Below are positions 1,847-14,157 of a stretch of DNA of 64,000 nt, one piece after another (position 1 is the stretch's first letter; each line of letters opens with the position of its first letter). A program made the position numbers and the translations under genes. The notes beneath the pieces are model-generated. The model did no database searches. It had not been told where the DNA came from and was given only the letters and a program-made list of their open reading frames with translations. Source of the DNA: Lutibacter sp. B1 (GTDB lineage Bacteria; Bacteroidota; Bacteroidia; Flavobacteriales; Flavobacteriaceae). The stretch is from assembly GCF_012524075.1 (NCBI RefSeq), contig NZ_JAAZUI010000004.1, forward strand, positions 1 to 64,000. Direction: 5' to 3'.

Positions 1847-3190
1847 ATGAAATCAAAAATAAAAAAGTTTATTGATTTAGTAAAAGAACGCAATCAATTT
1901 GAACCTGAATTTTTACAAGCTGTTGAAGAAGTTGCGGAAACTGTAATTCCATATATCGCTAGTCAAAAAATATATAATGGTAAAAATATTTTACTGAGAA
2001 TGGTTGAACCGGAGCGTGTAATAATGTTTCGTGTTCCATGGATTGATGATAAAGGTGAAATAGTTGTTAATAGGGGCTACCGTATTGAAATGAACTCTGC
2101 CATTGGACCCTATAAAGGTGGTTTACGATTTCACCCAACAGTTAATTTAAGTATTCTCAAATTTTTAGCTTTTGAGCAAGTATTTAAAAATGCATTAACA
2201 ACGTTGCCAATGGGTGGCGGTAAAGGTGGTTCAGATTTTGATCCTAAAGGAAAGTCGGACGGTGAAATTATGCGTTTTTGTCAAAGTTTTATGAGTGAAC
2301 TATTCCGTCATATAGGTCCAAATACCGATGTTCCTGCGGGTGATGTTGGCGTTGGAGGTAGAGAAATTGGTTATTTATTCGGAATGTATAAAAAATTGCG
2401 TAATGAATTTACTGGAGTTTTAACTGGAAAAGGAATGTCTTGGGGAGGTTCGTTAATTCGCCCTGAAGCTACAGGATATGGTACTGTTTATTTTGCTCAA
2501 AATATGTTAGAAACCAGAGGAGATTCTATTGAAGGTAAAACAGTAACGGTTTCAGGTTCAGGAAATGTTGCACAATATGCCTGCGAAAAAGCAACTCAGT
2601 TAGGTGCTAAAGTTGTTACATTATCAGATTCATCAGGATTTATTTATGACGAAGAAGGAATTAATGCCGATAAATTAGCCTATGTAATGGAGCTTAAAAA
2701 TGAAAAAAGAGGCAGAATTAACGAATATGTTAAAAAATATCCAAAAGCAAAATTCTTTAAAGATGAAAAACCTTGGGGTATAAAATGCGATGTAGCTTTG
2801 CCTTGTGCTATCCAAAATGAAATTAACAGTGATGATGCTAAAACACTTTTAGATAATGGATGCTATGTTGTTAGTGAAGGAGCTAATATGCCTTCTACAA
2901 TTGATGCGGCACACACATTTTTAGCAGCAAAAATTTTATATGCGCCGGGTAAGGCTGCTAATGCCGGTGGTGTGGCAACATCGGGTTTAGAAATGAGCCA
3001 AAACTCTTTACGTATTACTTGGACCAGAGAAGAAGTAGATGAAAAACTTAAAAATATCATGTCTGATATTCATGCATCTTGTATAAAATATGGTAAAAGA
3101 GATGATGGATATATAGATTATGTAACAGGAGCAAACATTTCCGGATTTGTTAAGGTTGCTGATGCAATGTTAGCACAAGGAGTTGTTTAA
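1847..3190 (+). CDS. gdhA: Glutamate dehydrogenase, predicted NADP(H)-type
   Basis: Reversibly converts 2-oxoglutarate and ammonium to glutamate in the cytoplasm. The 447 residues match the hexameric 50-kDa family. Substrate and catalytic residues are present: K90 in GPYKGG, K126 in GGGKGG and D166 in PAGDVG. The dinucleotide fold reads SGSGNVAQ (S238) and LSDSSG (S262). These match the Escherichia coli NADP enzyme; the clostridial NAD enzyme has Phe and Pro at these positions. I therefore infer NADPH use and an assimilatory role. The gene has its own promoter and terminator and is followed by a receiver/ATP-grasp protein and a second GDH paralogue. Confidence 0.95.
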   Translation: MKSKIKKFIDLVKERNQFEPEFLQAVEEVAETVIPYIASQKIYNGKNILLRMVEPERVIMFRVPWIDDKGEIVVNRGYRIEMNSAIGPYKGGLRFHPTVNLSILKFLAFEQVFKNALTTLPMGGGKGGSDFDPKGKSDGEIMRFCQSFMSELFRHIGPNTDVPAGDVGVGGREIGYLFGMYKKLRNEFTGVLTGKGMSWGGSLIRPEATGYGTVYFAQNMLETRGDSIEGKTVTVSGSGNVAQYACEKATQLGAKVVTLSDSSGFIYDEEGINADKLAYVMELKNEKRGRINEYVKKYPKAKFFKDEKPWGIKCDVALPCAIQNEINSDDAKTLLDNGCYVVSEGANMPSTIDAAHTFLAAKILYAPGKAANAGGVATSGLEMSQNSLRITWTREEVDEKLKNIMSDIHASCIKYGKRDDGYIDYVTGANISGFVKVADAMLAQGVV

Positions 3191-3215
3191 TTTTGAATAT
3201 ATTTACACTAATTAC

Positions 3216-3241
3216 GGGTTGTTTAAGTACAACCCTTTTTT
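3216..3241 (+). terminator. Intrinsic terminator after gdhA
   Basis: Perfect 7-bp stem GGGTTGT/ACAACCC with a 6-base loop, followed by a run of T. It lies 26 bases past the gdhA stop and separates gdhA from the next gene. Confidence 0.85.
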
Positions 3242-3309
3242 ATCTGTTTAAAGTTACTTGATATTAAAGTAAAATAATATCTTGCAATATAGAAGCAAGC
3301 TAGGTTAAA

Positions 3310-6300
3310 ATGAGAAAAAAGGTACTTCCGGATTTAAAAACGTATGAATTTGAAGAGGTTGCATTTAACCAATTAATGCAAAATCGAATCAATAAAGTTC
3401 TTATAGTTTGTTCTAACTACGATTTTTATATGTTAGAAGAAGATGGTAGAATTGACGAGCGTATTTTTAACGAATATACATCGTTAAACTTAAGATATCC
3501 TCCTAGTTTTTTACATGCTAATTCTGCCAAAAGAGCTATTAAAACGTTAAGTACAGATAAAATTGATTTGGTAATTACTTGGCTTGATATTGATAATTAC
3601 AAAGCTTTTGAAACTTCAAAACAAATAAAAGAGGCATTTCCAAATGTTCCTATTGCAGCGTTAAGTCATTATTCATCACAATTAAGAAGTAAATTAGAAA
3701 AGGAAAATCCCGGAGTTATAGATTTTGTTTTTCATTGGAATGGTAATGTTGATATTTTTTTAGCAATTATTAAGTTGACGGAAGATAGAATGAATGCTGA
3801 AAAAGATATTAATGAAATTGGCGTTAAAGCCATACTTTTGGTGGAAGATTCATTAAGATTTTACTCAAGATATTTACCAATCATCTACAAAATTTTACTG
3901 AAACAGGTAGATTCTTTTATGTCGGAAGGTTTAAATGAACACCGTAGAATGATGTTAATGAGAGGTAGGCCAAAAATATTGTTAGCTACACAATATGAAG
4001 AAGGTTTGACATTATTTCAAAAATATAAACACAACCTTTTAGGCGTTATATCGGATGTTTCATATTTTAAAGATGGTAAACGAGATTCTAAAGCAGGTTT
4101 TCAATTTTTAAAATATGTAAGAAGTATTGATAGGTATTTTCCATTTTTAATTCAATCTTCAGACAGCAATAACGAAAAATATGCTTTAGAACTAAAAGGG
4201 AAATTTTTATACAAACATTCATCTACCTTAGAGCAAGAAATTAAAAATTACATCAACAAGTATTTTTCATTTGGAGATTTTGAATTTTGGGATCCGGTTC
4301 AAATGAAAGTACTGAAAACAGCAAAAAATCTTAGTGAATTTCAAAAAGCTTTAAGTTCTGTTACCGATGAAGCTATTACATATCATGCCAAAAGAAGTGA
4401 ATACTCAAAGTGGTTACGATCGCGTGCACTTTTCCCTTTAGGAGACTTGTTTAGCAATGTTGAGTATGAAGATTTTGAAGATGTAAAACAAATCAGAGTA
4501 TTTTTAATAAATGCAATTAAAGCCTATCGTGTTTTTAAAGCAAGAGGAATAATTTCAAAATTTGATAAAAATAAATACGATGAATATTTAGGTTTTTCAC
4601 GAATAGGTGATGGCTCTTTAGGAGGAAAAGGTAGAGGTTTAGCTTTTATTGATTCATTTTTAAAAAGACATAAATTATTTAAAAAATATGATGATGTAAA
4701 CATATCTATTCCGCGTACAGTTGTGCTAAGTACCGAAGTTTTTGATGAGTTTATTGAAACATACGATTTGATCACTTTTGTTGCTGAAACTGATAACGAT
4801 GATGAAATTTTAAACAAATTTATTTCAAACCCTTTACCAAAATGGGTTTTAGAAGATATTCAGGCTTTTTTAAATATTGCTAAAACACCTATAGCTGTTC
4901 GATCTTCAAGTACATTAGAAGATTCACATTACCAACCGTTTGCAGGAATTTTTGCAACCTATATGCTTCCAAATACCGGAAAAGAAAAAATGTTAGAAAT
5001 GGTTAGTACAGCAATAAAATCTGTTTTTGCTTCAGCATTTTTTAAAAATAGTAAAGCATATTTAAAAGCAACATCACATTCTATTGAAGAAAGTAAAATG
5101 GCTGTAATTTTACAAGAGGTTGTTGGAAAACAATATGATAATCTTTTTTATCCAAACATATCAGGAGTTGCACGTTCAATTAATTTTTATCCTTTAGGAA
5201 ATGAGCAGCCTAGTGAAGGAATTGCCAATATTGCTTTAGGTTTGGGAGAAATTATTGTTGGAGGAGGTAAAACACTTAGATTTTCTCCTTATCATCCAAA
5301 AAAAGTATTACAACTATCATCTCCAAGTTCAACTTTAAGAGAAACGCAACAATATTTTTATGGGTTAGATATGAATCCGGATAGCTACAAAGCTTCTACA
5401 AGTGAGTCAATCAATAAAAAAAAGATAGTAATTAGAAGTGCTAAAGATCATCAAAAAGCATTAAAATTTGTAGCCTCAACATACGATTTGCAAAATAATG
5501 TTATAAAACCGGGTGTTTTACACGAAGGCATTCGTGTAGTAACATTTGATAATATTTTAAAATATAACACTTTCCCTCTACCTGAGATTTTGCAAGATTT
5601 GTTACGTATTGGTCAACGAGAAATGAGAAACCCAATTGAAATGGAGTTCGCAATAAATTTAGATGTACCAAAAGATAAACCAAGAGAATTCAGTTTTTTG
5701 CAAATTAGGCCAATAGTTGAAAGTAAGGAAATGGTAAGCGATTTGCCTGAAGATTTTAAACTTTCAGATAGTATAATATACTCAGAATCGGCTTTAGGAA
5801 ATGGAAAATATGAGCATATTCACGATTTAGTATATGTGAAGCCTGAAACATTTAATTCTGCAAATACAAGACAAATTGCAACTGCGGTAGAAGAGTTAAA
5901 CAGAAAATTTATAGAGCAAAACAAACACTATATTTTAGTGGGTCCGGGACGATGGGGTTCTAGCGATCCTTGGTTGGGTATACCGGTAATTTGGCCACAA
6001 ATATCTTCAGCAAAGGTAATTGTTGAAGCAGGACTTAATAATTTCAGGATAGATCCAAGTCAGGGAACTCATTTCTTTCAAAATTTAACATCGTTTAAAG
6101 TAGGTTATTTAACCATAAATCCTTTTATAAATGAAGGTTATTTTGATTTAGAATATTTGAACAATCATAAAGCGGTATATGAAAATACCTATTTACGACA
6201 TATAAGATTTAAAACATCTTTAACAGTAATTATTGAAGGAAAAAGTAATAAAGCAGCAATTTTTAAAGAAGGCTTTAAACAATTAAATGGTATGGAGCAA

Positions 6301-6345
6301 TTAGAAGATTTAATTGATGAATTACCTCCCGAAGGCTTTATGTAA
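3310..6345 (+). CDS. Receiver-like / PPDK-N ATP-grasp fusion protein (PEP synthase-like, catalytically atypical)
   Basis: A 1011-residue cytoplasmic protein usually labelled phosphoenolpyruvate synthase or PEP/pyruvate-binding protein. Residues 28-160 form a degenerate receiver-like domain: D93 is kept but the acidic pair is lost. Residues 173-320 form a second receiver with the usual set E179-D180, D249, S283 and K302. A PPDK-N ATP-grasp domain follows, with GGKGRGLAF at 438-446, AVRSSSTLED at 529-538 and the closing QIRPI at 798-802. After that, true PEP synthases have a phosphohistidine swivel domain and a PEP-binding barrel. Neither is seen; instead about 200 residues carry LVGPGRWGSSDPWLG (876-890) and SQGTHFFQN. 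It therefore cannot make PEP by the known route. It lies between two GDH genes. A role in sensing or modifying them is my inference. Confidence 0.8.
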   Translation: MRKKVLPDLKTYEFEEVAFNQLMQNRINKVLIVCSNYDFYMLEEDGRIDERIFNEYTSLNLRYPPSFLHANSAKRAIKTLSTDKIDLVITWLDIDNYKAFETSKQIKEAFPNVPIAALSHYSSQLRSKLEKENPGVIDFVFHWNGNVDIFLAIIKLTEDRMNAEKDINEIGVKAILLVEDSLRFYSRYLPIIYKILLKQVDSFMSEGLNEHRRMMLMRGRPKILLATQYEEGLTLFQKYKHNLLGVISDVSYFKDGKRDSKAGFQFLKYVRSIDRYFPFLIQSSDSNNEKYALELKGKFLYKHSSTLEQEIKNYINKYFSFGDFEFWDPVQMKVLKTAKNLSEFQKALSSVTDEAITYHAKRSEYSKWLRSRALFPLGDLFSNVEYEDFEDVKQIRVFLINAIKAYRVFKARGIISKFDKNKYDEYLGFSRIGDGSLGGKGRGLAFIDSFLKRHKLFKKYDDVNISIPRTVVLSTEVFDEFIETYDLITFVAETDNDDEILNKFISNPLPKWVLEDIQAFLNIAKTPIAVRSSSTLEDSHYQPFAGIFATYMLPNTGKEKMLEMVSTAIKSVFASAFFKNSKAYLKATSHSIEESKMAVILQEVVGKQYDNLFYPNISGVARSINFYPLGNEQPSEGIANIALGLGEIIVGGGKTLRFSPYHPKKVLQLSSPSSTLRETQQYFYGLDMNPDSYKASTSESINKKKIVIRSAKDHQKALKFVASTYDLQNNVIKPGVLHEGIRVVTFDNILKYNTFPLPEILQDLLRIGQREMRNPIEMEFAINLDVPKDKPREFSFLQIRPIVESKEMVSDLPEDFKLSDSIIYSESALGNGKYEHIHDLVYVKPETFNSANTRQIATAVEELNRKFIEQNKHYILVGPGRWGSSDPWLGIPVIWPQISSAKVIVEAGLNNFRIDPSQGTHFFQNLTSFKVGYLTINPFINEGYFDLEYLNNHKAVYENTYLRHIRFKTSLTVIIEGKSNKAAIFKEGFKQLNGMEQLEDLIDELPPEGFM

Positions 6346-6449
6346 AACAATAGCAACTATTAAATATTTATAACATAAGAATAACAATAGTTGAATTTAA
6401 TATGATTAATTTTAATAATAGATTTTATTTACGTTAAAACAGTAATATT

Positions 6450-7787
6450 ATGAAAGTGCAAGGTATATTAACAAACCTAGAAACCAAACATCCTGGTGAA
6501 AAAGAATATTTACAGGCTGTTCATGAAGTGTTGGAATCAATTGAAACAATTTACAATGAGAATCCACAATACGAAGCTGCTAAAATTATTGAACGTTTAG
6601 TTGAGCCGGATCGAATTTTAACATTTAGAGTTTCTTGGATGGACGATGCCGGAAATGTACATGTTAATTTAGGGTACAGAGTTCAGTTTAACAACGCAAT
6701 TGGCCCATACAAAGGTGGTATTCGCTTACACCCTAGTGTAAATTTGAGCATCCTTAAATTTTTAGGTTTTGAACAAATTTTCAAAAATGCCTTAACTACA
6801 TTACCTATGGGAGGCGGTAAAGGAGGTTCAGATTTTAACCCAAAAGGTAAGTCTGATGCCGAAATTATGCGTTTTTGCCAAGCTTTTATGTTAGAATTAT
6901 GGAGGATTATTGGACCAAGTGCCGATGTTCCTGCCGGTGATATTGGAACCGGAGGTAGAGAAATTGGATTTTTATACGGTATGTATAAAAAACTACAACA
7001 CGAAAATTCAGGAGTTTTAACAGGTAAGGGTTTAAATTGGGGAGGAAGTCTTATTAGACCGGAAGCAACCGGATTTGGAGCAACCTATTTTACCAAAGAA
7101 ATGTTAAAACTTGATGGAGATACTTTTAAAGATAAAGTAGTTTGTCTTTCAGGATTTGGAAACGTAACTTGGGGTGTTGCCCTAAAAGTTATTGAACTTG
7201 GAGGTAAAGTAATTACCATTTCGGGACCGGACGGATATGTACTTGATGAAAAAGGCTTAGACGCTGAAAAAATAAATTATTTATTAGCTCTAAGAGCTTC
7301 AAATAACGATATAGTTTCTCCTTATGTTGAAGTATTTCCTGAAGCTAAATTTATTCCGGGTAAAAAACCTTGGGAAGTACCTTGTGATATTGCAATGCCT
7401 TCAGCAATTCAAAATGAATTAGATGGAATTGATGCCGAAAATTTAATTAAAAATGGAGTTAAATATGTTGTAGAAGTTTCAAATATGGGCTGTACACCTG
7501 AAGCTATTTATGCTTTTCATAATGGAAAAATACCATTTGCTCCGGGTAAAGCTGCTAACGCCGGTGGAGTAGCTGTTTCCGGTTTAGAAATGTCGCAAAA
7601 TGCCATGAAATTAAACTGGACAAAAGAAGAAGTTGATGCTAAATTACATCAAATTATGTCGTCAATACATGAGGCTTGTTTAAAATACGGAACAGAAGAT
7701 GACGGCTATATTAACTACGTTAAAGGCGCTAATATTGCAGGTTTTATAAAAGTAGCCGATGCTATGTTAGACCAAGGAGTTATTTAA
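6450..7787 (+). CDS. Glutamate dehydrogenase paralogue, predicted NAD(H)-type
   Basis: A second 445-residue hexameric-type glutamate dehydrogenase. Active-site residues are conserved: K88 (GPYKGG), K124 (GGGKGG) and D164 (PAGDIG). The coenzyme site differs from the first copy. It reads SGFGNVTWG (F236) and ISGPDGY (P260), the arrangement of the NAD-specific Clostridium symbiosum enzyme, where the equivalent Phe238 and Pro262 disfavour NADPH. I infer a catabolic, NAD-linked role in oxidising glutamate. The gene starts 104 bases after the receiver/ATP-grasp gene on the same strand. No strong terminator separates them, so co-transcription is possible. Confidence is high for the family and moderate for the coenzyme. 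Confidence 0.93.
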   Translation: MKVQGILTNLETKHPGEKEYLQAVHEVLESIETIYNENPQYEAAKIIERLVEPDRILTFRVSWMDDAGNVHVNLGYRVQFNNAIGPYKGGIRLHPSVNLSILKFLGFEQIFKNALTTLPMGGGKGGSDFNPKGKSDAEIMRFCQAFMLELWRIIGPSADVPAGDIGTGGREIGFLYGMYKKLQHENSGVLTGKGLNWGGSLIRPEATGFGATYFTKEMLKLDGDTFKDKVVCLSGFGNVTWGVALKVIELGGKVITISGPDGYVLDEKGLDAEKINYLLALRASNNDIVSPYVEVFPEAKFIPGKKPWEVPCDIAMPSAIQNELDGIDAENLIKNGVKYVVEVSNMGCTPEAIYAFHNGKIPFAPGKAANAGGVAVSGLEMSQNAMKLNWTKEEVDAKLHQIMSSIHEACLKYGTEDDGYINYVKGANIAGFIKVADAMLDQGVI

Positions 7788-7994: not shown

Positions 7995-10900
7995 TTATAA
8001 ATACTTTTTTAAAACAGCTTCTTTTTGTTGAGGAATTTCTGCTATTTCTTTTTCAATAACACTTATTTTTTTTTCTATTGTTGAAATTTCTGAAACTATT
8101 TTTTGTTGTTCTGAAAGTGGTGGAAGTGGAATTTTAAAATCTTCTAATTGTTGTTTCGTTATTGCTTCTCTTGAAGTTGCTCCATTACCAATTTCTAATA
8201 ATTGAGATTTGTATTTATTTGAAACTAAAATATTTTGGACATATTGCGGCAATGCTTTATCTGTAACTCTAATAATAGAAACGTGTTGATTAACTCTTGC
8301 AGGTAAATATTTATCTTCTACAATACAACACCTTGCAATTGAAGCACCTGTAATATTAAAAAGGATATCGTTCTTTTCAACAGTTACATTATTTAATTTT
8401 CGTGCTTGTTCCTCATCAATAAAAGCTAATCCTTTGTTATTAAACTGATTATCATATATATTTTGACTTCTAATTAATGAAATTCCACTTGTTTTATATG
8501 AGCTTTCTCCACCTCTAGGTGTTGCTCCGCTTCCTATTTTTGAAGTAATATTAGATAATGATACTAAATTACCTGTAACTTTTAAAATAGCGTTTTTTAT
8601 CTTCTCTTTAAGTGTTTCAATATCCTCTTTTGCTTTTATTTCTTTTGCTTCTAAAACTTCAATTTCAGCAACTATTTTTTGTTGTATGTTTAATGATGGA
8701 ATTGGAATTTTTATGTTTGATAAATCATCACTATAAACATGGGGCTGCGCTTGACCTCTTTGTAATTGGTAGATTTCAGTTTGTATTGATTTTAAAAATA
8801 AATAAATCAATTTTGTAGAAATTAAATTTTCATTGTTTGAGATAATTGTATTACAATCTGACGCAAAAATTGGTGTTTCAAAATAGTTAACGAAACCTGC
8901 ATAAGCCCCAGATGCACTAACTGTCACAACATTTTTATCACGATTATATTCGTTATGAAAATAAGCAGGTTCCTTTCCTCCTGCAATTACAGGAATTTTT
9001 CCTTTTAAGGTTTTATTTTTTGTAATTGATGTTCCTTTTTTAATATCTGAAACAAGACCTAGATATTCTAATTTATCAGTTCCCCAAACTAATTCATATT
9101 TAATTTTTTTTTTAACAGAAAGTGAAATGTTTTTTTCAAAATCAACTCGGTCAAAAGTTAACATATCAACCAAATTATGGCGAGAAACGTTGTTTTGCAT
9201 TGTTTCATCAACAGTACTTTCAAAATCTCCTTGAAATGCTTTATAAATATAGGTACTTGCCTTTGTTTTATCATCAAATTTATCAGGATGAAACAATTGG
9301 GTGCAATCTTCAATGTTTTTGCCTCGTTGTATTGGGTGTATGCCTTCACTACCTCTACGGTTACTAAACTCGTATCCTAAAAATCGTTTTTCAGCATTTT
9401 TTTCGCCACTTTTTATCAATACCACTTTTTGTGGGTAAGTAATAATAAAATAATACAATTTATCAGCTTCTTTTTCTAAAAGAAGAGTCCAAAATTCTTT
9501 ATCGTTTTTAGCTTTTAGTTTCTTTTTATATTCTATATAAATTTCGTGTTCAGTAATAATTTTATTTGGTTTTTTTTGTAATAAAGTTATATAATCATCA
9601 AAAGAGAATTTCTCTCTTCCTTTGGAGGAGTTGGAGGTAGCTTCCCAAACGTGATTTATATATTTTGTTACAGGTTTTTCTATACCGTTTATTGTAACAT
9701 CTTGTAAGGCTGCGAAAAATTTTTCTACGGCAATTTTAATATTTAAACTTTCGTAATTATTGCGTCTTCTTAAAAATAGCGTTACTGTGTTGGTTCCTGT
9801 TGCCATAAAAGTATTACTGCCCAATTCTGTAATACCAACAATATCAAAATATTGTAAAATAATTTCACGAGACTTTGTGTAAATTCCCGTATTACTTAAA
9901 ATAGAACTTGGTAAAATTATACCTGCAACACCTCCATCTTTTAATAATTGTTTGGTTCGTTCTATAAACAAACATTCAATTTCACTACTGTTATCAGTTA
10001 GTTTATTATACAATTCAAAATCTTCATCTTTATAAAAAGTGCGTGCTGCGTTTTTAAAAGCAGAAACAGAATATGGCGGATTTGAGACTATAATATCAAA
10101 CTGTTTATTATCTTTTGGAAAATCTTTATCTGTATGTAACAGCTTCCCTTTATAATCTGGATGATTAAAACGCGCCAATCCATCACTATGAATTACATTA
10201 GCCAGTCCATCACCATGTAAATAGCAACCTACTTTACCAACTTTTACCAGTCGATAATCTTTTTCAATTCCGTATATATATTGAATTGCCCAAGCAAAAT
10301 GATCATTTTGCCAATAACTAATTTTTTTGGCTACACTCGGGTTGTATTTTGTACTGTCTTTTTGTTTAATTAACCGTTGCATTTCATGCATGGTTTCGGT
10401 CAAAAAGTGTCCGCTACCTGCTGCATAATCCATTACATAAGGTAATAAAGTATCATTATCTATTTTTGCTGTTGCCAATTTGTTTTCTAAAATGGTGTCA
10501 ATTGGTAAACTTTTAATTACAAATTGCGCTATTGGCACAGGTGTAAAAAATTGTCCGGATTCTTGTTTTAAACCTGTAGTTAATAATAACTCAAAAAAAT
10601 CGGATAGATATTGTTGTTTTTTGGTGTAGCGGAGCTTGTATTTTTGCAATAATTCAACAATTTCTTTTACTACGACTGCATTTTCATTAAAAGACTGTTC
10701 ATCATATACATCTTTAATCGCAAACTCATTATTTTTTTCTAATCTAATTTTATGAAATTCATCTAAAATTGGTTTACGTTGATCTTCAGTTAAATAATTA
10801 AATTTATTATTAAATTCTGTTTCAGAAAAATCGGTAACTACTTTTTCTAAAAACTCATGCATTCCTTCTTTATATAAATCAGTTAATCGTAGCTGAAAAC

Positions 10901-11747
10901 TTCTGTGGTCATCAATTCCTTCCAACCATTGAAAACCTAATTCGTTGTTAGTTCCTTCGTTGATTTTTTCATCATAAATTTTACAAAGAAATAATGTAAA
11001 AATTCTATTAAATGCATTTCCTTTATCTGAAACAACGTTGTGACGTAAAATTTCTAAAAAACGATTAAAAATAAAACTGCTGTCCTCTTGTTTTATTTCA
11101 ATTAACTCATTTATTGTTAGAGCTTTGCTTTCAAAATTATACGATTTTACCCATTCTTCAAAAACACCATTATCTTTAGTTAGTTTATTCCATTTTTCAT
11201 AAAAATCTTTTACATCTCCGGTTCTATATTCTTCTTCAATTTTTACAATTTCGTTTTTATAAACAATTTCATTTTCATTTAATTCAGATGCATAAAGCAT
11301 AATAATATCTGCCTTATTACTAAATTTAAAGTAGGTAAAAAGTTGACCACCATCTTTATTTAAACGATTTAAAGCTTTATCAAATTCTTTACTGTATGTT
11401 TTACATTCTATTAAAAGGTATTCAGAACCATCTTCTCGAGTTACACAAATGTCTAATCTTCCTGAAAATCCGTGCCCTGCCGGATATACTTTTTCTAATG
11501 AAATATTTTCGGGTTTATATCCTTTTTCAAGTAACCTGTTTACACATTCTAAAACAACCCAATCTTCCTGTTTTGTAATATTTTGAATGTCTTTTTCTCC
11601 TATTTTTATTTTTCCGCCAAAATAGAAAGTTTGGTTTTTAAAATCTATTTCAATAGTATAATTATCAGCATATTTTTTTATAAAAATATCTGAAGTATTT
11701 TCTTTTGGCTGAAAATTAAGTTTTTGTATGAGTTTTTTTTGATTCAA
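7995..11747 (-). CDS. Single-chain restriction-modification-specificity enzyme (type IIG/IIB, AloI-like)
   Basis: One 1250-residue protein combines three activities. Residues 1-200 form a PD-(D/E)XK nuclease like the N-terminus of HsdR, with D99, E114 and K116 (ECK). Residues 370-700 form an HsdM-like adenine-N6 methyltransferase, with QFFTP near 400, SAM motif I DYAAGSGHF at 440-448 and catalytic NPPY at 556-559. The last 360 residues form an HsdS-like part with two target recognition domains (about 893-1040 and 1075-1230). Each is followed by a helical spacer containing QQKIV. Size and order match the AloI/PpiI/TstI type IIB enzymes as I remember them, which cut on both sides of a split site. 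The frame is intact. No separate R, M or S gene is nearby, and a -7 box lies at 11770-11777. It protects the cell against foreign DNA. Confidence 0.88.
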   Translation of the reverse strand: MNQKKLIQKLNFQPKENTSDIFIKKYADNYTIEIDFKNQTFYFGGKIKIGEKDIQNITKQEDWVVLECVNRLLEKGYKPENISLEKVYPAGHGFSGRLDICVTREDGSEYLLIECKTYSKEFDKALNRLNKDGGQLFTYFKFSNKADIIMLYASELNENEIVYKNEIVKIEEEYRTGDVKDFYEKWNKLTKDNGVFEEWVKSYNFESKALTINELIEIKQEDSSFIFNRFLEILRHNVVSDKGNAFNRIFTLFLCKIYDEKINEGTNNELGFQWLEGIDDHRSFQLRLTDLYKEGMHEFLEKVVTDFSETEFNNKFNYLTEDQRKPILDEFHKIRLEKNNEFAIKDVYDEQSFNENAVVVKEIVELLQKYKLRYTKKQQYLSDFFELLLTTGLKQESGQFFTPVPIAQFVIKSLPIDTILENKLATAKIDNDTLLPYVMDYAAGSGHFLTETMHEMQRLIKQKDSTKYNPSVAKKISYWQNDHFAWAIQYIYGIEKDYRLVKVGKVGCYLHGDGLANVIHSDGLARFNHPDYKGKLLHTDKDFPKDNKQFDIIVSNPPYSVSAFKNAARTFYKDEDFELYNKLTDNSSEIECLFIERTKQLLKDGGVAGIILPSSILSNTGIYTKSREIILQYFDIVGITELGSNTFMATGTNTVTLFLRRRNNYESLNIKIAVEKFFAALQDVTINGIEKPVTKYINHVWEATSNSSKGREKFSFDDYITLLQKKPNKIITEHEIYIEYKKKLKAKNDKEFWTLLLEKEADKLYYFIITYPQKVVLIKSGEKNAEKRFLGYEFSNRRGSEGIHPIQRGKNIEDCTQLFHPDKFDDKTKASTYIYKAFQGDFESTVDETMQNNVSRHNLVDMLTFDRVDFEKNISLSVKKKIKYELVWGTDKLEYLGLVSDIKKGTSITKNKTLKGKIPVIAGGKEPAYFHNEYNRDKNVVTVSASGAYAGFVNYFETPIFASDCNTIISNNENLISTKLIYLFLKSIQTEIYQLQRGQAQPHVYSDDLSNIKIPIPSLNIQQKIVAEIEVLEAKEIKAKEDIETLKEKIKNAILKVTGNLVSLSNITSKIGSGATPRGGESSYKTSGISLIRSQNIYDNQFNNKGLAFIDEEQARKLNNVTVEKNDILFNITGASIARCCIVEDKYLPARVNQHVSIIRVTDKALPQYVQNILVSNKYKSQLLEIGNGATSREAITKQQLEDFKIPLPPLSEQQKIVSEISTIEKKISVIEKEIAEIPQQKEAVLKKYL

Positions 11748-11769
11748 AGCAGGGTTTTTCAGGTTATTA

Positions 11770-11777
11770 CAAAATTA
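11770..11777 (-). promoter_or_regulatory. Candidate -7 box of the restriction enzyme gene
   Basis: Minus-strand TAATTTTG fits TAnnTTTG and lies 22 bases before the ATG at 11747. CAA triplets on the plus strand lie 13 and 24 bases away, neither ideal as a -33 partner. Confidence 0.4.
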
Positions 11778-11809
11778 ATAAAAAAGTAAACAAAAAAACG
11801 ACAATCATT

Positions 11810-11844
11810 TTGAGTTATCAAAAAAATAATGAACATTACTTTTG
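11810..11844 (+). promoter_or_regulatory. Promoter of dinB
   Basis: TTG at 11810-11812 and TACTTTTG at 11837-11844, 24 bases apart, one more than the usual range. The -7 box is a full match and lies 12 bases before the GTG start, giving a very short leader. No SOS operator is recognisable. Confidence 0.45.
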
Positions 11845-11856
11845 TATTTTTGAGTA

Positions 11857-12948
11857 GTGAGCACTGAACCTAAATACCGCAAAATTATTCATGTGGATAT
11901 GGATGCTTTTTACGCTTCTGTAGAGCAATTGGATAACCCTGATTTAAAAGGAAAACCAATTGCTGTTGGTGGAGGTAGTGAGCGAGGTGTGGTTTCGGCA
12001 GCCAGTTACGAAGCTCGTAAATTTGGTGTTAGAAGTGCCATGAGTGGTGTTACAGCTAAAAAATTGTGTCCTCATTTAATATTTGTAAAACCAAGGTTTG
12101 GAAGATATAAAGAAATTTCAAATAAAATACGCACTATTTTTTATGATTATACCGATTTGGTGGAACCTTTATCGTTAGATGAAGCTTATTTGGATGTTAC
12201 CGAAAATAAAAAGGGTAATCCATCAGCAACATTAATAGCTCAAGAGATTAGGCAACGCATTTTTGATGAACTTAACTTACATGCTTCCGCAGGAATTTCA
12301 GTAAATAAATTTGTCGCAAAAATTGCTTCTGATATTAACAAACCAAACGGACAAAAAACCATTCCGCCGGAAGAGGTAATCCCTTTTTTAGAAGAATTAC
12401 CTATTGAAAAATTTTATGGTATAGGTAAAGTTACGGCAGCTAAAATGTATAATTTGGGCATTTTTAAAGGGAAAGATTTGAAAGAAAAAAGTGAAGAATT
12501 TTTAACGCAACATTTTAAAAGTTCAGGAAGTCACTATTATCATATTGTTCGAGGGATACATAACAGCAAAGTGAAACCTAACAGACTTCGAAAATCAGTT
12601 GCAGCAGAGCATACTTTTTTTCAAAATTTAACTTCTGAAATATTTATGCTCGAAAAATTAGAAAAAATTTCAGAAGAACTGGAACAGCGCTTAATACATT
12701 CAAAAGTATCGGGAAAAACAATCACCTTAAAAATAAAATACAGCGACTTTAAATTGCAAACACGCAGTAAAACTTTACCGTATTTTGTAAAAGAAAAGGC
12801 TATATTATTCGAAACAGTAAAAGAATTACTTTTTCAAGAAAAAGTATTGAACTCTGTCCGTTTATTAGGCATTTCAGTTACCAATTTAAATATACACTCT
12901 AAAAAAATTGAAAAAGTAATTGATGTTCAGTTAAAGTTTGAATTTTAA
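11857..12948 (+). CDS. dinB: DNA polymerase IV (Y-family translesion polymerase)
   Basis: Error-prone polymerase that bypasses DNA lesions in the cytoplasm. The 363 residues cover the full Y-family palm, fingers, thumb and little finger. Catalytic acids lie in HVDMDAFYASVEQ near the N-terminus and in SLDEAYLDVT. IGKVTAAKM forms a helix-hairpin-helix. The start is GTG at 11857. The first in-frame ATG falls inside the catalytic HVDMDAFY motif, so it cannot be the start. The gene is divergent from the restriction enzyme gene. The extreme C-terminus does not show a textbook sliding-clamp-binding peptide. Confidence 0.95.
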   Translation: MSTEPKYRKIIHVDMDAFYASVEQLDNPDLKGKPIAVGGGSERGVVSAASYEARKFGVRSAMSGVTAKKLCPHLIFVKPRFGRYKEISNKIRTIFYDYTDLVEPLSLDEAYLDVTENKKGNPSATLIAQEIRQRIFDELNLHASAGISVNKFVAKIASDINKPNGQKTIPPEEVIPFLEELPIEKFYGIGKVTAAKMYNLGIFKGKDLKEKSEEFLTQHFKSSGSHYYHIVRGIHNSKVKPNRLRKSVAAEHTFFQNLTSEIFMLEKLEKISEELEQRLIHSKVSGKTITLKIKYSDFKLQTRSKTLPYFVKEKAILFETVKELLFQEKVLNSVRLLGISVTNLNIHSKKIEKVIDVQLKFEF

Positions 12949-12998
12949 TTTTGTGATTCCTTTTTATTCCTGATTAGAGTTGAAGTAAAGGCAAGTGT

Positions 12999-13030
12999 TT
13001 ATTTTGTCATTCCTGCTGAGGCAGGAATCT
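12999..13030. repeat. GTCATTCC-type palindromic element (short form)
   Basis: ATTCCTGC (13009-13016), loop TGAG, GCAGGAAT (13021-13028), inside TTTTGTCATTCC...GGAATCT. The left half matches the larger element at 58647-58724. It lies between the convergent ends of dinB and the saccharopine dehydrogenase-like gene, where it could act as a hairpin. Confidence 0.6.
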
Positions 13031-13038
13031 AACCTTTT

Positions 13039-14157
13039 TTAAAACTCTTCTTTTTTATAAACCACATTTCGGTCTTTCAAATAGTTTAAAACATACTTGA
13101 AACAGTTTTCATATTTACCAACTAATTCTGGAGGAAAAACACCTTTCTCGCTAAATAAACCTTCTAAAAACATATTTGCTGAGGCTGTTGCCGTGTAACC
13201 TGTTGTTCTTGCCATTGATGAGGTTTTTGTTTTTTCACAAAAAGTATCGTGTAAATTATAAATAACGGTTTTGTTTTCACCTTTAACGGTAATGCGCATT
13301 ACGGTAAGTTCTTTTTCAGTTTCTCCTAATTTCCATTCATTAAATAAAATTTTAGAAGTAAACTCTAAAGGAGAAATTTCTATACCGTTTATTTTTATTT
13401 TTTCTTCATTAAAAAATCCGCTTTCTTTTAAAACTTTAACGTATTCTACATGGTTAGGATAACGCAATGTTTTTTCTTTCATATTTGGAATGTGAGACAT
13501 AGTATAAATAATAGAGCGTAGGCCATCAGAATTGAAAGACTCCAAAGTCCCAACATCTTCAAAATTTACAAATTCACAGTCAGAAAGTGCTTCTTTCACA
13601 ACAATATTTCCGTTTTCAACATAGCGAGCCGGACGCGTATATTCTTCAATAACATCAACCGGAGAAAAAGGCGCTTTGTAATTAAACGGCCACTTTGTAA
13701 CTTTAGGTAAACCGCCTACCAAACATTCAAAATAGGTTACTTTAAATTTTTCGTTATAGTAACCTAAAATATAATTTCCCATTCCGGGAGCTACACCACA
13801 ATCTACAATAGCCGTAACATTTTTTTCTTTTGCCAAAGCATCTAGTTCTAAAGAATTTTCAGGAAAAAACGAGATATCAATTACGTTTTTACCGGCTTCA
13901 ATAATAGATTTTAAGGTTTCAAAACCCAAAAAACCCGGAACTGCACAAATAACCAAATCAAACGGGGTAATGGTTTTTTGCAATTCTTTTTTATTGGTTA
14001 CATCTAAAATAATTGTATTGAGTTTATCGCATTTTTTTAAAGCATTATACAATGCTGTTTTACTAAAATCGGTTATAGAAACATGGTGTTTTTTTGCCAT
14101 ATCAACAGCTATTGTGCTGCCTACCATACCGGCACCTAAAACAATAATTTTGCTCAT
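13039..14157 (-). CDS. Saccharopine dehydrogenase family protein (possible lysine-pathway oxidoreductase)
   Basis: A 372-residue cytoplasmic NAD(P)-dependent oxidoreductase. The N-terminal Rossmann fold shows GAGMVGS (residues 8-14). The catalytic-domain regions include DCGVAPGMGN and SMARTTGYTATASA, typical of saccharopine dehydrogenase and lysine 6-dehydrogenase relatives. Flavobacterial members are usually annotated as saccharopine dehydrogenase acting in lysine breakdown. An ALDH7-type dehydrogenase that could oxidise the aminoadipate semialdehyde product lies 49 kb away at the window end, so the two are not in one operon. The exact substrate is not determined by sequence. Confidence 0.85.
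   Translation of the reverse strand: MSKIIVLGAGMVGSTIAVDMAKKHHVSITDFSKTALYNALKKCDKLNTIILDVTNKKELQKTITPFDLVICAVPGFLGFETLKSIIEAGKNVIDISFFPENSLELDALAKEKNVTAIVDCGVAPGMGNYILGYYNEKFKVTYFECLVGGLPKVTKWPFNYKAPFSPVDVIEEYTRPARYVENGNIVVKEALSDCEFVNFEDVGTLESFNSDGLRSIIYTMSHIPNMKEKTLRYPNHVEYVKVLKESGFFNEEKIKINGIEISPLEFTSKILFNEWKLGETEKELTVMRITVKGENKTVIYNLHDTFCEKTKTSSMARTTGYTATASANMFLEGLFSEKGVFPPELVGKYENCFKYVLNYLKDRNVVYKKEEF

Follow-up and report, generated by a model that had tools for sequence, protein, structure and literature searches.

A receiver and ATP-grasp protein encoded between two glutamate dehydrogenase genes is a candidate regulator of glutamate dehydrogenase in Bacteroidota

We analysed a stretch of 64,000 nucleotides from Lutibacter sp. 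B1 (assembly GCF_012524075.1, contig NZ_JAAZUI010000004.1, positions 1 to 64,000 of the forward strand; hereafter the window), in which the gene for a 1011-residue protein, here called the central protein, lies between two genes for glutamate dehydrogenase (GDH). Many relatives of this gene adjoin GDH genes, which makes it a promising candidate controller of GDH, and we put at about even the chances that the central protein is dedicated to regulating GDH activity in an ATP-dependent way. The main argument is that the inputs of the family vary while its core, an ATP-grasp and a C-terminal domain, and the neighbouring GDH mostly stay, suggesting that GDH is the target or the partner of the core. 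The C-terminal domain and the association with GDH appear to be new, the ATP-grasp and the receivers being of known kinds; a literature search, which missed most subscription journals, found no description of the link between the family and GDH. GDH is a principal point of nitrogen entry and exit in Bacteroidota, gut species included, and our literature search identified no agent that switches its activity in this phylum. A candidate with a conserved ATP site, a receiver, a new conserved domain and a phylum-wide tie to GDH makes the question of GDH control testable.

The locus and the domains of the central protein

The two GDH genes and the enclosed central gene all lie on the + strand, a layout that an initial annotation had read from the letters and that the open reading frames and the matches to GDH profiles confirm. 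The features of the locus, in window coordinates, are as follows.

1847–3190, + strand: GDH1, an NADP-type glutamate dehydrogenase of 447 residues (PRK09414, 762 bits, cut-off 536)
3216–3235, + strand: terminator-like hairpin and T run, 3′ of GDH1 (consensus match; scan not above shuffles)
3310–6345, + strand: central gene, for a receiver/PPDK_N/C-terminal domain protein of 1011 residues (open reading frame, Pfam, alignment, AlphaFold2 model)
3391–3804, + strand: first receiver-like unit, residues about 28–165, degenerate, with a conserved YDxYxLEEDGR stretch (Pfam, alignment, model, Foldseek)
3823–4263, + strand: second receiver, residues about 172–318, with conserved E179–D180, D249, S283 and K302 (alignment, model)
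4264–4599, + strand: linker region, residues about 319–430, with weak similarity to DUF5752 (Pfam, model)
4615–5757, + strand: PPDK_N ATP-grasp domain, residues 436–816 (Pfam, alignment)
5767–6267, + strand: C-terminal domain, residues about 820–986, no known family found (alignments, profile and fold searches)
5941–5988, + strand: GPGRWGSSDPWLGIPV motif, residues 878–893 (alignments)
6055–6078, + strand: PSQGTHFF motif, residues 916–923, with the invariant H921 (alignments)
6450–7787, + strand: GDH2, a glutamate dehydrogenase of 445 residues (PRK14030, 825 bits, cut-off 743)

GDH1 exceeds the cut-off of the NADP-specific model PRK09414, and GDH2 exceeds those of both PRK14030 and PRK09414. 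They are the sole GDHs found in the 3.4-Mb window genome (194 contigs).

The initial annotation had also described one degenerate and one apparently complete receiver in the central protein, and this description held. Pfam matches Response_reg at residues 69–140 under the cut-off (22.2 versus 30.2 bits), within the first, degenerate unit and not the second; the evidence for the second receiver comes from the alignment and the model. The alignment of 45 rows comprises the window protein and 44 relatives that are 39–81% identical to it (of the 48 rows of alignment A1, three come from plasmid records, and A3 keeps the remaining 45). E179, D249, S283 and K302 are each found in 45 of 45 rows and D180 in 44, and the acidic pair, the phospho-acceptor aspartate, the serine or threonine and the lysine of receivers are all present in the second unit. 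The AlphaFold2 model (mean predicted local distance difference test, pLDDT, 83.2) contains two receiver-like units by the order of strands and helices, an ATP-grasp and a C-terminal alpha/beta domain. Its segments with pLDDT below 50 are residues 539–546, 806–809, 918–921 and the tail, and 806–809, between the ATP-grasp and the C-terminal domain, may be a hinge. Among relatives (loci, genomes and lineages are cited below by L, G and f numbers), Response_reg is over the Pfam cut-off in L115 and L116; DUF5752, under the cut-off in the central protein, is over it in one relative, L115.

The PPDK_N domain is matched with an E-value of 1.4e-40. In a multiple alignment with the genome's own PPDK, all 33 family rows share K440, R531, E779 and Q798 with PPDK, 32 of them share R800, and residue 777 is glutamate or aspartate in all 33; pairwise BLASTP of the ATP-grasp part against that PPDK returned no alignment. 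Judged by these residues, the ATP site looks intact, as does the second receiver. Neither PEP-utilizers domain was reported by Pfam in the central protein at an E-value of 1, and the genome's own PPDK, as a positive comparison, showed all three domains. The absence of the phosphohistidine and phosphoenolpyruvate (PEP)-binding domains, as proposed in the initial annotation, is thus borne out by our searches, and a conserved domain was indeed found where about 200 conserved-looking residues had been noted in their place. One family member carries the generic RefSeq name 'PEP/pyruvate-binding domain-containing protein'.

In the C-terminal domain, GxGRWGxxD..LG.P and SQGxHFF are prominent motifs in 51 rows. 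R881, in the GRWGS region, and H921 are invariant in 45 of 45 rows, and R881, D886, E906, S917 and H921, with several glycine, tryptophan and phenylalanine residues, are invariant in 32 rows, distant forms among them. This pattern suggests that the domain has an active site or a binding site. Modelled alone, the domain was well predicted, with a pLDDT of 87.9 and a predicted template modelling (TM) score of 0.84. Profile and structure searches returned no significant family or fold: Foldseek alone against PDB folds had no match at a threshold of E 0.001 (best E 0.017, TM 0.24), and the best matches among viral fold models (E 0.037, TM 0.37), in Pfam with the 51 rows (E 0.018), among PDB sequences (E 0.16) and in PHROGs (0.09) were all taken as chance. 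Its profile showed no similarity to PPDK (0.5% probability).

Genomic linkage to glutamate dehydrogenase

The initial annotation had raised the question of whether homologues are placed at random with respect to gdh genes, and across Bacteroidota they are not. We surveyed the distribution in this phylum and, beyond it, in plasmid records, where matches covering at least half of the query came from three Bacteroidales records. The phylum sample was an even draw of 148 Bacteroidota genomes with at most five candidates scored per genome, and the class sample held 395 genomes with at most two, so family members may be missed. Relatives were found in 25 of the 148 phylum-sample genomes, at 43 places including the window's own. 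GDH lies within 5 kb at 35 of the 43 (a partial GDH match in G097 is taken as near), and in all 35 the nearest GDH is on the same strand. The eight unlinked places comprise one in G035, 6.8 kb off in a GDH cluster; two in G047, near the end of a contig without GDH; three with GDH at 14, 16 and 46 kb; and two without GDH on the contig. In the class sample, 20 of 395 genomes matched, and 16 genomes with 20 further places were retained after dropping G370 and G446 (receiver-only matches) and G000 and G107 (already in the phylum count). Ten of these places are within 5 kb of GDH, eight of them with opposite-strand GDHs only.

Over both samples, 45 of 63 members lie within 5 kb of GDH. By a rough estimate the chance of this is about 1% per gene, and placement beside GDH by chance can be rejected. 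A single inherited operon is rejected too, as orientation and GDH type differ among loci: the gene is on the same strand as GDH, divergent from it or convergent with it. The link is real: it recurs in all three architectures, with GDHs of different subfamilies and in different relative orientations of the genes. By eye, with no systematic count, we noticed no other neighbour that all of these share. In a seeded search, GDH was within 5 kb in 73 of 79 loci (downstream in 69, upstream in 40, on both sides in 36); these loci are mostly close relatives and therefore add little independent evidence.

Architectures of the family

Three forms share the core: the receiver form of the window type (form 1), a core-only form of about 580 residues (form 2), and a form of 780–1065 residues, the ~1060-residue type, with a different N-terminus (form 3). 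Pfam found a Polbeta nucleotidyltransferase at the C-terminal end of form 3 in three of five proteins scanned, and a GS...DxD nucleotidyltransferase motif is visible by eye in 9 of 11 aligned form-3 rows. Forms 2 and 3 adjoin in six loci (L103–L108), with an overlap of a few bases in both cases examined. The next gene in L103, L105, L106 and L107 encodes a GDH of 428–429 residues; L104 is a larger cluster that includes a receiver form and two GDHs, and L108 stops at the contig edge. Form 3 without form 2 adjoins GDH in L109 and L111–L114, and not in L110. The 428-residue GDH of L105 scores best with an archaeal-type GdhA model, under its cut-off, and so belongs to a subfamily other than those of GDH1 and GDH2.

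In a tree with extremely long outgroups, the core-only proteins (6 rows) and the ~1060-residue proteins (11 rows) each form a supported clade; the receiver forms make up two groups and, separately, L146, and the tree does not show them to be a single clade. A separate Polbeta nucleotidyltransferase gene (about 283 residues, L146:4435–5283) lies 3′ of a 1149-residue receiver-form paralogue in lineage f87. In L144 of the same lineage, a gene of about 283 residues (642–1487) adjoins the receiver-form paralogue of that lineage (1149–1154 residues) and has no Pfam match at 0.1. One nucleotidyltransferase query against the window genome, run without a positive control, gave no match.

Some loci hold further genes near these proteins. 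A second, diverged receiver/PPDK_N copy lies near the first in L035, L036, L054, L058, L061, L062 and L064; in five loci it comes just after GDH2, and in L054 and L064 it directly adjoins the first copy. After the GDH/~1060-residue pair of L109 come the histidine biosynthesis genes for HisG, histidinol dehydrogenase and IGPD (10010–14048), and genes matched to these by length alone lie near the pair in L103, L104, L107, L108, L111 and L112.

Proposed mechanism and alternatives

If the central protein regulates GDH, a partner kinase would phosphorylate D249 and so gate the core of ATP-grasp and C-terminal domain. The core would then spend ATP by dikinase chemistry, perhaps via the invariant H921, and switch the neighbouring GDH between states, such that two GDHs of different type would not be active together. 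PPDK_N domains of PPDK and PEP synthase transfer a phosphoryl group from ATP to histidine; as the histidine domain is missing and the genome's one PEP-utilizers match is inside PPDK, the acceptor could be H921, GDH or a metabolite. No kinase was recognised by eye among nine window open reading frames, no systematic kinase search being made. In L115 (9788–11858), a PAS/HisKA_3 histidine kinase and a LuxR-type response regulator are encoded between the receiver-form gene and the next GDH.

As a more specific and tentative proposal, the ATP-grasp and a new catalytic domain with the GRWGS and SQGTHFF motifs could modify GDH covalently and reversibly, by phosphorylation, or by nucleotidylation in the sisters that bear a nucleotidyltransferase, with the sensory inputs interchangeable. 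If so, the family would do for GDH in Bacteroidota what GlnE and GlnD do for glutamine synthetase, and early observations on the control of GDH in Bacteroides would be explained by it. The initial annotation had suggested an ATP-dependent signalling or protein-modifying enzyme that adjusts glutamate metabolism; the intact-looking ATP site and receiver and the tie to GDH support this in part. The protein may act on one or other GDH, and may modify a protein rather than a small molecule or merely bind.

Several observations weigh against a dedicated regulator of GDH. Any contact with GDH, or modification of it, is hypothetical. For 18 of the 63 members the 5-kb range holds no GDH (two lie at 6–7 kb in a GDH cluster, and some are near contig ends), and lineage f87 is mostly unlinked, with one of eight places within 5 kb of GDH; on the contig of the nucleotidyltransferase locus L146, GDH is absent. 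Only 25 of 148 phylum-sample and 20 of 395 class-sample genomes gave matches, and GDH was scored only where a member was present. The hairpin behind GDH1 would also count against it: a single transcript of GDH1, the central gene and GDH2 is not certain because of it. As a terminator it is putative: the scan found one site, fewer than the mean of 3.0 in shuffled sequence.

The protein could instead be a metabolic dikinase that phosphorylates a small molecule of glutamate or 2-oxoglutarate metabolism, much as the substrate of rifampin phosphotransferase is a small molecule, and lies beside GDH as a gene of the same pathway. The conserved PPDK_N residues, the best whole-model matches in the PDB (rifampin phosphotransferase 5hv1 and HpeI 9goj) and, in L118, L121 and L122 (family f14), a class I/II aminotransferase gene that lies downstream of the gene for the receiver form would all fit. 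The protein, however, has no phosphohistidine domain, no split partner is evident since the only PEP-utilizers match in the genome is within the true PPDK, and the presence of receivers and the variety of the N-terminal parts point to regulation. We consider this alternative unlikely. An equally doubtful one is a pseudo-enzyme or energy sensor, whose ATP-grasp would bind ATP or AMP and whose C-terminal domain would bind GDH, with a non-covalent effect on assembly or activity. The GDH linkage agrees with it, as would a hinge at the low-confidence stretch 806–809, but the compared ATP-site residues are conserved, the acidic ones too, and the arginine, aspartate, glutamate, serine and histidine that are invariant in the C-terminal domain across distant forms seem more like an active site. 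A general nitrogen-signalling protein, merely co-regulated with GDH and with a different target, would accommodate the members farther than 5 kb from GDH (8 of 43 phylum-sample members and 10 of the 20 added by the class sample) but is improbable, given that the tie spans different GDH subfamilies and three core architectures and that no other shared neighbour was noticed by eye.

Comparison with known systems

The central protein resembles PEP synthase and PPDK (PPDK_N, PF01326) in having an ATP-grasp with the same ATP-site residues; it differs in that neither PF00391 nor PF02896 is reported, and in its other C-terminal domain and added receivers. With the phosphohistidine and PEP-binding domains missing and a C-terminal domain unlike PPDK, identity with either enzyme is rejected, in agreement with the earlier view that it cannot be a normal PEP synthase. 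In Foldseek searches with the whole model, the best PDB matches were rifampin phosphotransferase (5hv1), HpeI (9goj) and PleD, and further receivers were matched; sequence-profile matches to the 5hv1 and 9goj chains are confined to the ATP-grasp part. A phosphohistidine domain is part of rifampin phosphotransferase, and HpeI probably partners with one in trans. Unlike these, the central protein has no such domain that we could find, either in itself or as a separate partner in the genome: the single PF00391 match there sits in PPDK, although sub-threshold domains, perhaps that of L003, are possible. A split dikinase of the HpeI type with a partner histidine domain was rejected on the strength of that lone match. 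L003 (G000:C69) encodes a protein of at least 849 residues that ends in PPDK_N; a stretch ahead of this domain (SHVQLLARN) resembles, by eye, a degenerate histidine domain, which Pfam does not report.

PleD shares the tandem receiver units, the complete receiver being the first unit in PleD and the second in the central protein, whose output is the ATP-grasp and the new domain rather than GGDEF. The likeness to nucleotidyltransferases of the GlnE/GlnD type lies in the many ~1060-residue relatives that end in a Polbeta-type domain beside GDH; the window protein, in contrast, has no nucleotidyltransferase. No GlnE was found in the window genome.

By its title, a 1996 study of Baggio and Morrison on Bacteroides thetaiotaomicron concerns one or more trans-acting genes that lie downstream of gdhA and influence GDH activity (cited in PMC4539542). 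The central-protein family might be considered a candidate for the gene behind this factor. Its gene of about 3 kb beside GDH is directly downstream of one in L150 and L151, a position that would fit the title of the 1996 study if that GDH is gdhA: it follows a GDH1-type gene (444–446 residues) by about 90 and 300 bp, respectively, and is convergent with it. The L150/L151 member and its Phocaeicola massiliensis relative share about 80% identity, and the L150 GDH exceeds the cut-off for NADP-specific PRK14031. Reportedly, the 1996 study found a 3-kb downstream segment to be needed for activity in Escherichia coli, and a 1987 report, not found in our literature search, is said to have described reversible GDH inactivation in B. 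fragilis. The GDH1-type enzymes have a mass and isoelectric point (pI) of 48.8 kDa and 6.1 in L150 and 49.2 kDa and 6.3 in L151, similar to the 49.1 kDa and pI 6.1 listed for the NAD(P)H enzyme of B. fragilis in PMC4539542.

Against the connection with the 1996 factor, the pI ranges of GDH1-type (5.8–6.4) and GDH2-type (5.4–6.4) enzymes overlap, so mass and pI separate the types poorly; three genes in L123 and four in L125 lie between the GDH1-type gene and the family gene; and the 2015 paper applied the name gdhB to its NAD(P)H-dependent GDH (PMC4539542). BT_1971 was considered as the central-protein gene and rejected, being called a catalase in two papers.

Beyond the GDH locus, the window encodes on the − strand (7995–11747) a single-chain restriction-modification protein of 1250 residues with HSDR_N, an N6 methylase and two specificity-domain stretches.

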